Positions 9,660 through 52,010 of a stretch of DNA of 64,000 nucleotides are shown piece after piece. The notes beneath the pieces are model-generated. The model had not been told where the DNA came from and did not search any database. It worked only from the letters and a program-made list of their open reading frames with translations. The stretch covers positions 62,001 through 126,000 of the forward strand of contig SVEB01000028.1 of NCBI GenBank assembly GCA_015057635.1, written 5' to 3'. Made by a program: the position numbers and the translations under genes. This DNA comes from Lachnospiraceae bacterium. Lineage in GTDB: Bacteria; Bacillota; Clostridia; Lachnospirales; Lachnospiraceae. How positions within the stretch are numbered: the stretch's first letter is position 1; the number at the start of each line of letters is the position of its first letter.

Positions 9660-9885
9660 TTACGCCCCCCAGTAAGGGATGAGAGGGAGGCTGGCGTGAA
9701 GCAGTTCCAAATGTTCAGACGCATGAGCGGACAAAAAGATGACTCCGTCTTTGCCTAGCGGACAGGAAAAACTTCTGTCTGCTATTCAAAGACGGAGTCA
9801 CCTTTTTGTTCGTCATGAGCCGGACATTTCGGAACTGCTTCACACCAGCCTCCCTCCCCGCCCCTCCTGGGGCCCCATTCCGCCT
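9660..9885. repeat. Large palindromic element, copy A
   Basis: GGGAGGCTGGCGTGAAGCAGTTCC-AAATGTTCAGACGCATGAGCGGACAAAAAGATGACTCCGTCTTTG ... CAAAGACGGAGTCACCTTTTTGTTCGTCATGAGCCGGACATTTCGGAACTGCTTCACACCAGCCTCCC; clear arms 9685..9854. Confidence 0.95.
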
Positions 9886-26855: not shown

Positions 26856-27261
26856 AAAAAATGTGTTTGGTTGGGAGGATCTCGGAGGGAGGTGTGAGGG
26901 GGAGGATGGGGGTGTGAATGCAGGGGTGGTGAGGTGTTGGAGGCGGTGACGGCTGAGAGGCGCGAGTGGGCGGCGGCGGAGCGATATTTTTTCCAAATGT
27001 TCGGACGCATGATGAACAAAAAGCTGGTTCTGTCTTTGCCTATCAGACAGGAAGGCTTTGTCTGCTATTCAAAGACGGAACCAACTTTTTGTTCATCATG
27101 AGCCGGACATTTCGGAAAAATATTGCCCCGCCGCCACCCACTCACACCTCTCAGCCATCACCGCCTCCAACACCTCTCCATCCCTGCATTCACGCCCCCA
27201 TCCTCCCCCTCACACCTCCCTCCGATATCGCGACGCGTTTACAAAACAAACGCATCGTGAT
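26856..27261. repeat. Large palindromic element, copy B (arms about 150 bp)
   Basis: Left arm TTGGGAGGATCTCGGAGGGAGGTGTGAGGGGGAGGATGGGGG... mirrors right arm ...CCCCCATCCTCCCCCTCACACCTCCCTCCGATATCGCG; centre holds the conserved core. Confidence 0.95.
27227..27261. repeat. Terminal small hairpin of copy B
   Basis: ATCGCGACGCGTTT-ACAAAAC-AAACGCATCGTGAT. Confidence 0.9.
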
Positions 27262-27748
27262 AAAACACCAGCATATGATGGATCATTTGGTTTTTTATCG
27301 TTTAATTTTTTAATCATTTAGTCATTTTATATAAAGATTATGAACGGCCTTTATAAAAATATTTGACAGAATCAAAAGATACTCTGATTCAGTGCGTCAA
27401 TCCTCGATAGATCAAGGAATGATTCTTATATTGTTAAGAATCGTTATGAAGTAGCATAGACTAAACTTAAAGTAGATTGTTCGGCCCCCTTAACGCCTGT
27501 CTTTTGTCTTAATTATTTCTTATTACCATACCTCTACCTTTATCCTAAGTTTTCTTTCTTTCCTCCTGCCATATTGTATACAGAAATGATAGAATGCAGA
27601 AATATAAAAATAAACGAATACCTGATCCTAACGTATATCCATATTCTCATATCCGTGTATCCCTTTCATACGTTCATTAACTAATCCCGCCAGCACTTCA
27701 GTGCCTGGTCCATCTGTTCGTCCTTTCGTTTCACCAGGCTAGTGTATC

Positions 27749-27779
27749 CACGATGCGTTTCGTTTAGAAACGCGTCGTG
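27749..27779. repeat. Terminal small hairpin of copy C
   Basis: CACGATGCGTTT-CGTTTAG-AAACGCGTCGTG, matching the end hairpin of copy B. Confidence 0.9.
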
Positions 27780-28177
27780 ATGGCGAAGGGAACCCCATGG
27801 AGGGTGCGCTTTCTTTTGGGGGCGGCGGACGCATGATGGGATGCGTGGGAGAGTGGGGCACAGATGTGGACAAAGCAGGATGTGCGGGAGCAACGGGTAA
27901 TATATTTTCCGGAATGTCCGGCTCATGACGAACAAAAGTGGGAGGTTATCTTTGAATAGCAGACAGCGCCTTCCTGTCTGATAGTCGAAGATAACCTCCC
28001 ATTTTTGTCCGCTCATGCGTCCGAACATTCGGAAAATAGATTGCCCGTCGCTCCCGTGCATCCTGCTTTGTCCACATCTGTGCCCCACTCCTCCACGCAT
28101 CCCATCATGCGCCCGCCGCCCCCAAAAGAAAGCGTACCCTCCATGGGGTTCCCTTCGCCATCCTCCCAACAAACTAC
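27749..28177. repeat. Large palindromic element, copy C, opposite orientation to B (arms about 190 bp)
   Basis: Left arm GGCGAAGGGAACCCCATGGAGGGTGCGCTTTCTTTTGGGGGCGGCGGACGCATGATGGGATGCGTGG... mirrors right arm ...CCACGCATCCCATCATGCGCCCGCCGCCCCCAAAAGAAAGCGTACCCTCCATGGGGTTCCCTTCGCC. Confidence 0.95.
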
Positions 28178-48624: not shown

Positions 48625-50736
48625 ATGCAGATACATTTTCACAAACCAGACTCAAACGAATGGAAGAAAAAATTAAAACACCCTATGGTTGTTTGCTTTT
48701 TGGTAGCGTTTGGTCTGAACCTTTTTGTTGAAGCAATGTCAAGATGCTCACTGTTTGGCGCATTCGGATACTTATTCACCAATCCGCTCGTATTCCTTTA
48801 CAATACTGTGATTATCGCAGCCACGCTTTCCATCACGCTCCTGTTTCGAAAGCGCACATTTGCTATGACATTCGTTTCCCTTCTATGGGTGATCATCGGT
48901 ATCACGGATTTCATCCTGTTACAGTTTCGTACGACACCTTTCACCGCAATCGATATTCTGATGATCAAATCCGCCATTGAAATTTGGCAGTACTACCTAA
49001 ACTCCTTCCATCTGATCTTAATCGGAGCGGGCCTTGTCCTCTTAATCCTTGGACTAGTTTTCTTATGGAGAAAGACAAAGAAAATAACCGGAAAGATTGC
49101 ATTTTACAAAGTGTTAGCCTTTAGTGCCATCACCTTTCTTTCCTCCCTTTTGTTAACGGAAGCCGGCCTTAAGACAAATCTTTTAGCCGCGAACTTCGGG
49201 AATCTGGCAGATGCCTTTCACGAGTATGGCCTCCCATACTGTTTCGTAAACAGTGTGATCAATACGGGAATTGACAAACCAAAGCACTATTCCCCGGACG
49301 TGGTGAATCAAATTGTAAACGCAGTAGAAGAAGGGGTTGTCGTACAGCCTTCCGATATCATTCCAACCAATAAACCGGATACACTTCCTACTGCCACACC
49401 AACTCCGACTGCAACTCCGACACCAACTCCAACTGTTGTACCGGAAGCTGCAAACCCTTATCCAAATATCATTATGGTGCAGCTCGAATCCTTCTTTGAT
49501 CCAGCGCATATTAAAGGAATCACCTTCACCTCAGATCCAGTTCCAAATTATCGAAACCTGGTCAACAATTACTCTTCCGGATACTTAAATGTACCTAGCG
49601 TTGGTGCTGGAACCGCTAATACCGAGTTCGAAATCATTACCGGCATGAACCTTGACTTCTTTGGTCCCGGCGAATATCCTTACAAAACGATTTTACAGGA
49701 AATGACCTGTGAAAGCGTGAATTTCAACTTAAAGACATTAGACTATACAACCCACGCAATTCATAACAATACCGGAACCTTCTACGACCGTAATAAGATT
49801 TTCTCCCAGCTCGGATTTGATACCTTCACATCTGTGGAATATATGAACAATGTGGAACACACACCGCTTGGCTGGGCAAAAGATGATATTTTAGTAGGTG
49901 AGATTGATAAAGCGCTTAAAGACACAGATGGCCAGGATTTCGTTTATACCATTTCCGTACAGGGACATGGAAGCTACCCATCCGAGCCAATTCTTAAAAA
50001 TCCGGAAATCGACTTAACGCTTCCTAGTAACTTATCAAGCGACTTATATTACCCGCTTCTTTACTATGTGAACCAGATTCACGAGATGGATGATTTCATC
50101 GCCCATCTTATGGACTATGTTGACTCCCTTTCCGAAGATACCGTCTTAATTATGTATGGCGATCATCTTCCTGGCTTTAAGCTAGAAGCGACCGATTTAG
50201 ACAATGAATCCTTATTCCAGACGCAGTATGTCATGTACAGCAACTTTGCAATGGATACCATTCACAAAGATTTGGAATCCTATCAGCTGTACTCTTATGT
50301 ATTAGAGCGTCTTGGCATCAGCGTCGGGCTTATTCCAAAGCTTCACCAGACACAGCAAGATTCTGAAGTTTATTTGGATGAGTTGAAAATTTTAGAATAC
50401 GACATGCTTTATGGCGACTTAGACTGCTATGGCGGTGTGAATCCGAACGTTGCGACCGATCTTCAGATGGGCATCGATCCGATCACCATCAACAACGTGC
50501 AGTTAATCCCGGTAAATGATACGGAAGACCAAAATATCTGTATCGTAACCGGTGATAATTTCACTCCATACAGTAAGATCTGCGTAAATGGCTCCTATGT
50601 CACAACGACTTTCCAGGATTCCCACACACTGACCGCATCCGACGTGACCCTCTCCTCTGGCGACCAGGTCACCGTAGTTCAAAGCGGCACCGACATGGTA
50701 GTCCTTAGTTCCACTGAACCTTGGATACAAGACTAG
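48625..50736 (+). CDS. LTA synthase family (sulfatase) membrane protein with C-terminal IPT/TIG-like domain
   Basis: 703 aa; N-terminal TM helices, PTATPTPTATPTPTPT linker, IIMVQLESFFDP, VGAGTANTEFEIITGM, TISVQGHGSYPSEP, MYGDHLPG; C-term ICIVTGDNFTPYSKICVNGSYVTTTFQDSHTLTASDV. Confidence 0.9.
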   Translation: MQIHFHKPDSNEWKKKLKHPMVVCFLVAFGLNLFVEAMSRCSLFGAFGYLFTNPLVFLYNTVIIAATLSITLLFRKRTFAMTFVSLLWVIIGITDFILLQFRTTPFTAIDILMIKSAIEIWQYYLNSFHLILIGAGLVLLILGLVFLWRKTKKITGKIAFYKVLAFSAITFLSSLLLTEAGLKTNLLAANFGNLADAFHEYGLPYCFVNSVINTGIDKPKHYSPDVVNQIVNAVEEGVVVQPSDIIPTNKPDTLPTATPTPTATPTPTPTVVPEAANPYPNIIMVQLESFFDPAHIKGITFTSDPVPNYRNLVNNYSSGYLNVPSVGAGTANTEFEIITGMNLDFFGPGEYPYKTILQEMTCESVNFNLKTLDYTTHAIHNNTGTFYDRNKIFSQLGFDTFTSVEYMNNVEHTPLGWAKDDILVGEIDKALKDTDGQDFVYTISVQGHGSYPSEPILKNPEIDLTLPSNLSSDLYYPLLYYVNQIHEMDDFIAHLMDYVDSLSEDTVLIMYGDHLPGFKLEATDLDNESLFQTQYVMYSNFAMDTIHKDLESYQLYSYVLERLGISVGLIPKLHQTQQDSEVYLDELKILEYDMLYGDLDCYGGVNPNVATDLQMGIDPITINNVQLIPVNDTEDQNICIVTGDNFTPYSKICVNGSYVTTTFQDSHTLTASDVTLSSGDQVTVVQSGTDMVVLSSTEPWIQD

Positions 50737-50778: not shown

Positions 50779-50940
50779 GGATGGCGCGCTATCTTTTTTG
50801 AATGTTCAGACGCATGAGCGAATAAAAAGACGCCCGGTTCTTTTCCTGGCAGACAGCAAATTCATCTGTCTGCCAGGAAAAGAGCCGGGCGTTTTTTTGT
50901 TCGTCATAAGCCGAATATTCAAAAAAATAGTGCGCCATCC
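50779..50940. repeat. Large palindromic element, copy D
   Basis: GGATGGCGCGCTATCTTTTTTGAATGTTCAGACGCATGAGCGAATAAAAAGACGCCCGGTTCTTTTCCTGGCAGACAG ... CTGTCTGCCAGGAAAAGAGCCGGGCGTTTTTTTGTTCGTCATAAGCCGAATATTCAAAAAAATAGTGCGCCATCC. Confidence 0.95.
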
Positions 50941-51002: not shown

Positions 51003-52010
51003 CTATTCCAACTCCCTGGCGGATTCGCGGATAACAAGTTTTCCAGTCAGCATCTTACGGCCGAGGGTAAGGTCTGGGTTCTCGATTTTATCTATGATGC
51101 CCTTGGCGGCAGTTTCAGTCATAACATCAAGGTCAATGCTTAAAGTTGTCAGCTTTGGAGAACAGAGTTCTGCGAAAATATAGTTATCATAGCCAACGAT
51201 GGAAATATCGTCTGGAAGATGATAGCCTTTTTCCTTTAGGTGGTTGGCAAATAAGTATGCCACCTCATCACAATTGCATACGAATGCAGTCGGCATGGTC
51301 TTTGGCAGAGTGAAATTAATGAAGTTTCCTTCCTCATCCCGGTCATTGATCACCCAATGGTCATTAATCGGCAGGTTATTCTTAATCAGCGCTCTCATAT
51401 ATCCCATATAGCGGTCCAGTATGCTGCTTGTGGCATTTACCGTTCCCACAAATCCAATCTTCTTATGGCCTAATGAGATAAGATAGTCGGTTAACAGATA
51501 GGTGCCATAAAAGCTGTCACTGATTATTGCATCGATCTCACTGTGGGCATCCACATAATCAAGGAATAAAAATGGAATACCGCTTTCCCGGATCATCTCA
51601 ATATACTTTGTCCCTAACTGTCCCAGCACAATAATACCGTTTACTTTTCCATCTGCAATAATATTCGGCTTTACTCCGGATACCTCATTCACATGTGTCA
51701 CCACTTCTAAGATCCCGTAATACCCATGTGTGGAAAGCGCTTTTACCGTCTTCTGGTACATCTTTAAATAGTAAGATACATCATCCCTTACAAACTGCTC
51801 TGCCACTAAAATCCCCACATTATAATGGTTTGTCTCTTTTACTGTCTTTGTGAGATTTCCGGTATGATAGCCCATCTCCTCGGCTACCTGCTTGATCTTC
51901 TCACGAAGCTCCGCGGATACCCCATCTTTATCAGCAAGCGCTTTGGAGATCGTAACAATACTTACTCCCAGCTCATTTGCAATATCTTTCATCGTAACAT
52001 TTTTCTTCAT
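51003..52010 (-). CDS. LacI-family transcriptional regulator
   Basis: 335 aa; VTMKDIANELGVSIVTISKALADKDGVSAELREKI HTH and periplasmic-binding-like domain. Confidence 0.95.
   Translation of the reverse strand: MKKNVTMKDIANELGVSIVTISKALADKDGVSAELREKIKQVAEEMGYHTGNLTKTVKETNHYNVGILVAEQFVRDDVSYYLKMYQKTVKALSTHGYYGILEVVTHVNEVSGVKPNIIADGKVNGIIVLGQLGTKYIEMIRESGIPFLFLDYVDAHSEIDAIISDSFYGTYLLTDYLISLGHKKIGFVGTVNATSSILDRYMGYMRALIKNNLPINDHWVINDRDEEGNFINFTLPKTMPTAFVCNCDEVAYLFANHLKEKGYHLPDDISIVGYDNYIFAELCSPKLTTLSIDLDVMTETAAKGIIDKIENPDLTLGRKMLTGKLVIRESARELE

Follow-up and report, generated by a model that had tools for sequence, protein, structure and literature searches.

A lineage-restricted family of long extragenic palindromes with terminator-like cores and arms that change in concert in Lachnospiraceae

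Element B, a near-perfect hairpin of 352 nt at positions 26878-27229 of the window (the whole analysed stretch of 64,000 nucleotides from a Lachnospiraceae genome), probably represents one copy of a palindrome family that is built around a bidirectional-terminator core, mostly replaces ordinary terminators and has its arms kept matched by template switching. With moderate confidence we regard the family as lineage-restricted, high-copy, terminator-like extragenic palindromes, to be filed as a variant of the extragenic palindromic repeats.

Structure of element B and of the family

The existence of a giant hairpin at copy B was confirmed. Its fold as single-stranded DNA reached -184 kcal/mol compared with -62 +/- 4 kcal/mol for shuffled sequences (z = -31), and its inverted repeat comprises 26878-27004 and 27103-27229 (127 nt, 90% complementary), with inner arms at 26988-27049 and 27059-27120 according to the inverted-repeat search. 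The element, whose bounds follow from the inverted repeat, the fold and the nhmmer/palindrome searches, lies on the plus strand with respect to the sense orientation of the family and consists of outer arms of approximately 112 nt and a structured core. The sequence-only reading had placed the hairpin at 26856-27261, which holds for the hairpin itself and is slightly too wide for its bounds, as the range takes in some 20 nt to the left of the element and, on the right, another small hairpin that is separate from it.

The 5' outer arm (26878-26990, +) is G-rich and locus-specific. Its base composition (62 G, 21 T, 18 A and 12 C; n = 113) bears out the strand bias that had been ascribed to the arms, and its claimed lack of relationship with the arms of copies A and D also stands, since no other match was found in its own genome or in that of the sister species. 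For the same lack of other matches, a captured genomic fragment was rejected as its source. The 3' outer arm (27118-27229, +) is the C-rich complement of the 5' arm, and the count of arm pairing (104 matched positions, 8 transitions and 2 transversions in the outer arms) agrees with the earlier statement that the mismatches are mainly transitions.

Between the outer arms, and likewise on the plus strand, are located the 5' conserved block TTCCAAATGTTCGGACGCATGATGAACAAAAA (26991-27022), which ends in an A-tract that is a T-tract on the minus strand, the 5' side of the variable stem 2 (GCTGGTTCTG, 27023-27032), the conserved inner hairpin TCTTTGCCTATCAGACAG-GAAGGC-TTTGTCTGCTATTCAAAGA (27033-27075), the 3' side of stem 2 (CGGAACCAAC, 27076-27085), a T-tract (27086-27090) and the 3' conserved block GTTCATCATGAGCCGGACATTTCGGAA (27091-27117). 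Both conserved blocks were delimited by the family alignment and stem 2 by two-sided Watson-Crick changes across the copies. The inner hairpin contains a pair of normally asymmetric hexamers which can be used as a marker of conversion, and the T-tract, directly following the 3' side of stem 2, is predicted from RNA folds in both directions to form a terminator-like unit together with stem 2 and the inner hairpin. The small second hairpin GCGACGCGTTT-ACAAAAC-AAACGCATCGTG (27230-27259, +) adjoins the 3' arm, and the same module follows many other copies. Two open reading frames of 115 codons (26966-27313, +) and 163 codons (27681-28172, -) cross B and D, respectively; they are a by-product of the arm composition and were not counted as genes.

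In the family alignment the order of the parts is arm, TTCCGAATGTTCGGACGCATGAGCGGACAAAAA, stem 2, TCTTTGACTATCAGACAG, loop, CTGTCTGCTATTCAAAGA, stem 2', TTTTTGTTCGTCATGAGCCGGACATTCGGAA and arm', conserved blocks alternating with stems that are complementary within a copy and different between copies. The conserved core of approximately 110 nt, which had been recognised in B before, is common to at least 150 loci of the host genome. Its blocks are imperfectly symmetric, so that the orientation of each copy can be read from the hexamer pair ACTATC/AATAGC, from wobble pairs that are fixed and from a bulged G. The outer arms are mostly 30-70 nt long and exceed 110 nt in some copies, reaching approximately 125 nt or more. 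Over the whole family the 5' arms consist of 39% G, 24% A, 23% C and 14% T, and the arm mismatches comprise 458 transitions and 150 others.

A second hairpin with the consensus ACAATGCGTTTC-N-GAAACGCATTGT was detected directly 3' of the 3' arm in approximately 41 of the 140 copies analysed; its stem varies in a paired manner, and the flanking sequence has an alternative pairing partner in the end of the 3' arm. Some copies carry AGACGGAC ahead of the 5' arm and TGTTTGGTG after the 3' arm, another subset TTAGGGG ahead of the 5' arm and the second hairpin after the 3' arm, and the motifs CACTAG and GTGCCTCAC recur near the element ends. Reduced forms, which kept parts of the outer blocks and are missing the inner hairpin, were found near L074 10690 and L075 4870, the former with a deletion consistent with the direct repeat CATGAGC.

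Copies in the window and the locus of element B

Four copies of the family are located in the window, where the palindromes range from approximately 160 to 380 nt and the Rfam 15 covariance models at gathering score gave tRNAs only. Element A (9667-9872, +) has short arms, and its core is in the opposite orientation to that of its orthologue in the sister species (L061:4620-4815) while the flanks are collinear; such a reversed core is a loop inversion of the kind that template switching or recombination between the arms can give. Element D (27779-28162, sense on the minus strand) is a giant hairpin behind ftsH, followed by its own small second hairpin (27749-27779, -). The orthologous place is occupied in the sister species, the two cores being nearly identical, whereas stem 2 and the larger part of the arms have different sequences that still pair. 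The fourth copy (50779-50940, +) lies 43 nt after an open reading frame at 48625-50736 (+) and before a convergent one at 51003-52010 (-).

Element B is an exception, belonging to the minority of copies that do not follow a same-strand stop codon; it has no gene of the same strand in front and lies upstream of a GH13 gene. It is flanked by minus-strand genes: GH13, on the left, leads away from B, and ftsH, on the right, has its end behind D. A GH13 promoter about 40 bp away and an effect of B on this gene had been proposed. Promoter-like hexamers (TTGTAT-N17-TAAAAT) are indeed present at 26822-26794 on the minus strand, approximately 42 bp from the end of the homology to the sister species; their resemblance to the sigma-70 consensus is weak, and they were not reported by the consensus promoter scan. 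In the sister species, which lacks B at this place, the homology stops at 26864 and the GH13 upstream region is intact, the hexamer region being conserved in the alignment and the stretch adjoining the GH13 start being 94% identical over 148 nt. Because B is missing there despite the conserved sequence, the promoter region can do without B. Taking also into account that the family is mostly found behind genes, a special effect of B on GH13 is not supported. At most, B, read in the minus direction, could block read-through from ftsH ahead of the GH13 promoter.

Distribution of the family

A covariance model of the core gave at least 150 matches in the host genome (G000) and at least 149 in the sister species (G001), an uncultured Lachnospiraceae of the same genus represented by a metagenome-assembled genome of 78% completeness. 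These two uncultured, gut-type bacteria were the only positive ones among 116 genomes searched, the core not being found in three other congeners or in the remaining relatives. A 24-base core pattern was found in one genome of a collection of 84,980 species from which the host species may be missing; this metagenome-assembled genome of an uncultured Lachnospiraceae (CALZIE01) corresponds to the sister species. The core had no match among plasmid records, phage records and IMG/VR. Of the long hairpins detected in the two carrier species, 19 of 24 and 22 of 25 carry the family core.

Long palindromes are usually held to be unstable in bacteria. At least 150 of them persist in the host genome although an SbcD homologue is encoded; the loss of SbcD as the cause of their survival was rejected, since a homologue is present in all five genomes (5/5).

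Position behind genes and terminator-like core

The upstream gene is encoded on the sense strand of the element in 117 of 143 copies, and in 111 of 140 a stop codon on the same strand precedes the arm by a median of 17 nt (open reading frames of at least 80 codons, stop within 120 nt of the element). The core is, as far as can be told from its sequence, built like a bidirectional intrinsic terminator. Read as RNA on both strands, its unit of A-tract, stem 2, inner hairpin, stem 2' and T-tract was recognised as terminator-like in 111 of 140 copies in the sense and in 115 of 140 in the antisense direction, compared with 7 of 120 shuffled sequences. The family cores thus have the stable stem-loop followed by a T-tract and, B excepted, the location just behind a gene which characterise intrinsic terminators. 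Against a terminator role, many cores have a short T-tract of 4-5 T, and a run of four is missing from 12 of the 140 cores.

A separate terminator between the stop codon and the element was detected in only 5 of 111 cases, whereas terminators were present at 36 of 65 and 50 of 96 convergent gene ends free of the element, these counts being derived from a second finder, as long hairpins escaped the first-pass one. Orthologous gene ends without the element in the sister species often have an ordinary, unrelated terminator hairpin; among these places, two actually hold reduced elements and one a terminator with a loop resembling the inner core. Most copies therefore appear, on these counts, to replace the ordinary terminator behind a gene. 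Since the elements sit mostly behind genes throughout the family, their likely role is terminator-like, and transcription would presumably end at the element.

Two other ideas on the core were abandoned. Insertion of the core into the loop of an older terminator, the stems of which became the arms, was rejected because the terminator stems at element-free orthologues are unlike the arms, and an integron attC-like nature, suggested by variable stems with fixed irregularities, was dropped because the copies do not form cassettes but occur dispersed behind housekeeping genes. As side observations, the 40-300 nt behind the 3' arm are purine-rich family-wide with approximately 10% C, compared with 16-18% behind element-free genes, and the stop codon TAG is used by 70 of 111 genes with the element and by 85 of 287 without it.

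Concerted divergence of the arms

The view that the symmetry of the arms is actively maintained, put forward in the sequence-only reading, predicted that the arms would not diverge asymmetrically between relatives. This was examined on 13 to 16 orthologous pairs of host and sister species, in which the arms change in concert and block conversion is visible, so that this part of the earlier interpretation was upheld while the special effect on GH13 was not. In 13 pairs, two-sided changes that preserve the pairing were counted at 141 arm positions and one-sided changes at 86; the corresponding numbers from an earlier comparison of 16 pairs were 84 and 42. The concerted changes have a transition:transversion ratio of 63:78 (0.81), which is close to the neutral ratio of 3363:3686 (0.91) at four-fold sites, 45% of which differ between the species. 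This similarity and the two-sidedness of the changes indicate that the arms drift much like neutral sequence, but jointly. The one-sided mismatches, which are young, are rich in transitions (65:21, i.e. 3.1). Rewriting of the arms in multi-base patches was not evident from adjacent concerted changes (46 observed, 40 +/- 4.2 expected, not significant), and symmetric indels of the arms were not demonstrated by a simple, alignment-sensitive test (9 vs 92).

The inner block provides a record of copying. Usually ACTATC (57 copies) or CCTATC (33 copies) is found opposite AATAGC. Seven copies are symmetric as ACTATC/ACTATC and four as CCTATC/CCTATC, each matching its own 5' variant, and symmetric states of all kinds amount to 17 copies. 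Symmetrising the block takes two or three transversions, and intermediates one step from symmetry were found three times for the ACTATC kind and not at all for the CCTATC kind. The known orthologues of the symmetric copies are asymmetric and have retained the AATAGC partner. The converse state with AATAGC on both sides, in which the 5' side would have been converted, was not seen among the copies compared. This pattern is expected if the 3' arm is copied from the 5' arm of the same strand. The sequences thus indicate that the 3' side of the inner block has been rewritten from its own 5' side by a multi-base change that symmetrises one arm relative to an asymmetric orthologue, as in quasipalindrome template switching. 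The one-sided direction of conversion is compatible with switching on the leading strand and may also reflect selection.

In the mechanism that we propose the nascent strand would fold on the hairpin during DNA replication and the folded strand would copy one arm from the other by quasipalindrome template switching. A mutation in one arm would thereby be erased or transferred, so that the arms could drift together with no fixed arm sequence being required. Replication is presumably the time of copying, and the same copying may well maintain the outer arms. Quasipalindrome mutation has been well studied in E. coli, where it shows a leading-strand bias (PMC7202029), and RNA hairpins have been proposed to arise and persist through template switching (PMC8794818).

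Alternative explanations

The arms might instead be kept complementary by selection on RNA pairing, i.e. on the structure of a 3' UTR or terminator, through two-step compensatory mutation. The location behind stop codons in the orientation of the gene is consistent with this explanation, as are the irregular stem positions kept by the core (a fixed bulge and fixed U-G and G-U pairs), and there is a precedent in the terminators of Bacillus cereus, which evolve by compensatory changes with G-U as the commonest and favoured intermediate (PMC5381666). In the arms studied here, on the contrary, sense-strand G-T mismatches are fewer than A-C mismatches (175 vs 283). The same holds between convergent genes and in tandem arrangements, in which the sense transcript alone is relevant (61 vs 109). 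This lack of G-T enrichment speaks against selection on RNA pairing being the main cause, although a bidirectional use of the element could mask a wobble preference. The moderate excess of A-C over G-T in the outer arms is likewise unaccounted for by template switching. Furthermore, 78 of the 141 concerted changes (55%) could not have passed through G-U, compared with 102 of 482 switches, about a fifth, in B. cereus (PMC5381666), a comparison that is indicative only as the divergence differs. Joint changes by two or three transversions in the inner block are not expected from compensatory evolution, and the 3' arm would be outside the RNA if transcription stopped at the core. Selection on RNA pairing therefore seems unlikely to be what keeps the arms matched.

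The elements could also be non-autonomous, MITE- or REP-like transposons mobilised by a transposase in trans, with the arms as long terminal inverted repeats and the location at gene ends as an insertion preference. The high copy number, the differing presence and absence between the species and the outer-end motifs conserved in subsets fit such an origin. However, closely similar arms were found in only one pair of host copies, which are neighbours, no target duplication was seen where the intergenic divergence is too high to define the boundaries of empty sites, a reverse transcriptase was found in neither carrier genome, and two transposases of the Y1_Tnp type (IS200/IS605-type) were found in the host and none in the 78% complete sister genome. 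A purely transposon-based origin is thus rated as quite improbable. Some spread must nevertheless have occurred, and transposition may hold for the core alongside template switching. A retro-element was rejected because no reverse transcriptase was found in either genome, and a RAYT partner was dropped, since the Y1 transposase located close to one of the copies is a TnpA beside a TnpB; this IS605-type pair (L118:2390-4629), close behind the copy that follows a phosphoenolpyruvate carboxykinase-like gene, is taken as a coincidence. The remaining alternative, an assembly or amplification artefact, has in its favour that the genomes are fragmented, that the sister genome is metagenome-assembled and that fold-back chimeras yield inverted repeats. 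Two separate assemblies share orthologous positions and the same core with fixed asymmetries, the arms contain mismatches, 400 kb of the control congener (G003) contain no such hairpins and the element positions are non-random relative to stop codons, which makes an artefact extremely improbable. Returning to the template-switching explanation, we regard as tentative its extension in which the core spreads into gene 3' ends (the route to new loci is one that we infer), displaces the resident terminator and, through successive template switches, builds up and preserves there a giant palindrome specific to the locus.

Comparison with known systems

Intrinsic (Rho-independent) bidirectional terminators resemble the family in having a stem-loop with an A-tract before and a T-tract after it, behind stop codons and often between convergent genes. 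They differ from the family, for which termination is predicted, in that the latter has a conserved core of about 110 nt at its many loci and long outer arms. If the terminator role is true, one repeat family substitutes for ordinary terminators at many genes.

Repeats of the REP, BIME, ERIC and YPAL types (with GTAG and CGTC REPs; PMC3733652) are similarly high-copy, extragenic, located mainly downstream of coding regions, palindromic and lineage-restricted. REPs are 20-40 bp long with a conserved stem (PMC3733652), whereas in the present family conserved blocks alternate with stems whose two sides pair but whose sequences are unrelated from copy to copy. The palindromes of the window exceed the REP length, and no unpaired GTAG or CGTC tag was seen in the alignments. 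No RAYT-type partner was identified, at least one of the two Y1_Tnp genes of the host having a TnpB neighbour (IS605 type).

The palindromes retained in the mitochondrial genes of Nematomorpha (PMC6649704) are comparable in that many long, near-perfect palindromes persist in a genome. They are located inside protein-coding genes of animal mitochondria (PMC6649704), whereas the family described here is extragenic, bacterial and has a shared core.

Quasipalindrome correction by template switching (PMC7202029, PMC8794818) shares with the family the rewriting of multiple bases in an arm, a directional bias and, as in element A, loop inversion as a by-product. An old question on paired stems is whether they change by two-step compensation or by one-step copying; here hundreds of parallel natural replicates with an internal marker, the asymmetric hexamer pair, reveal copying and its direction. 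Template switching is known from single reporter loci and has been inferred in rRNA stems, whereas in this family an entire genomic set of terminator-like hairpins appears to be subject to it.
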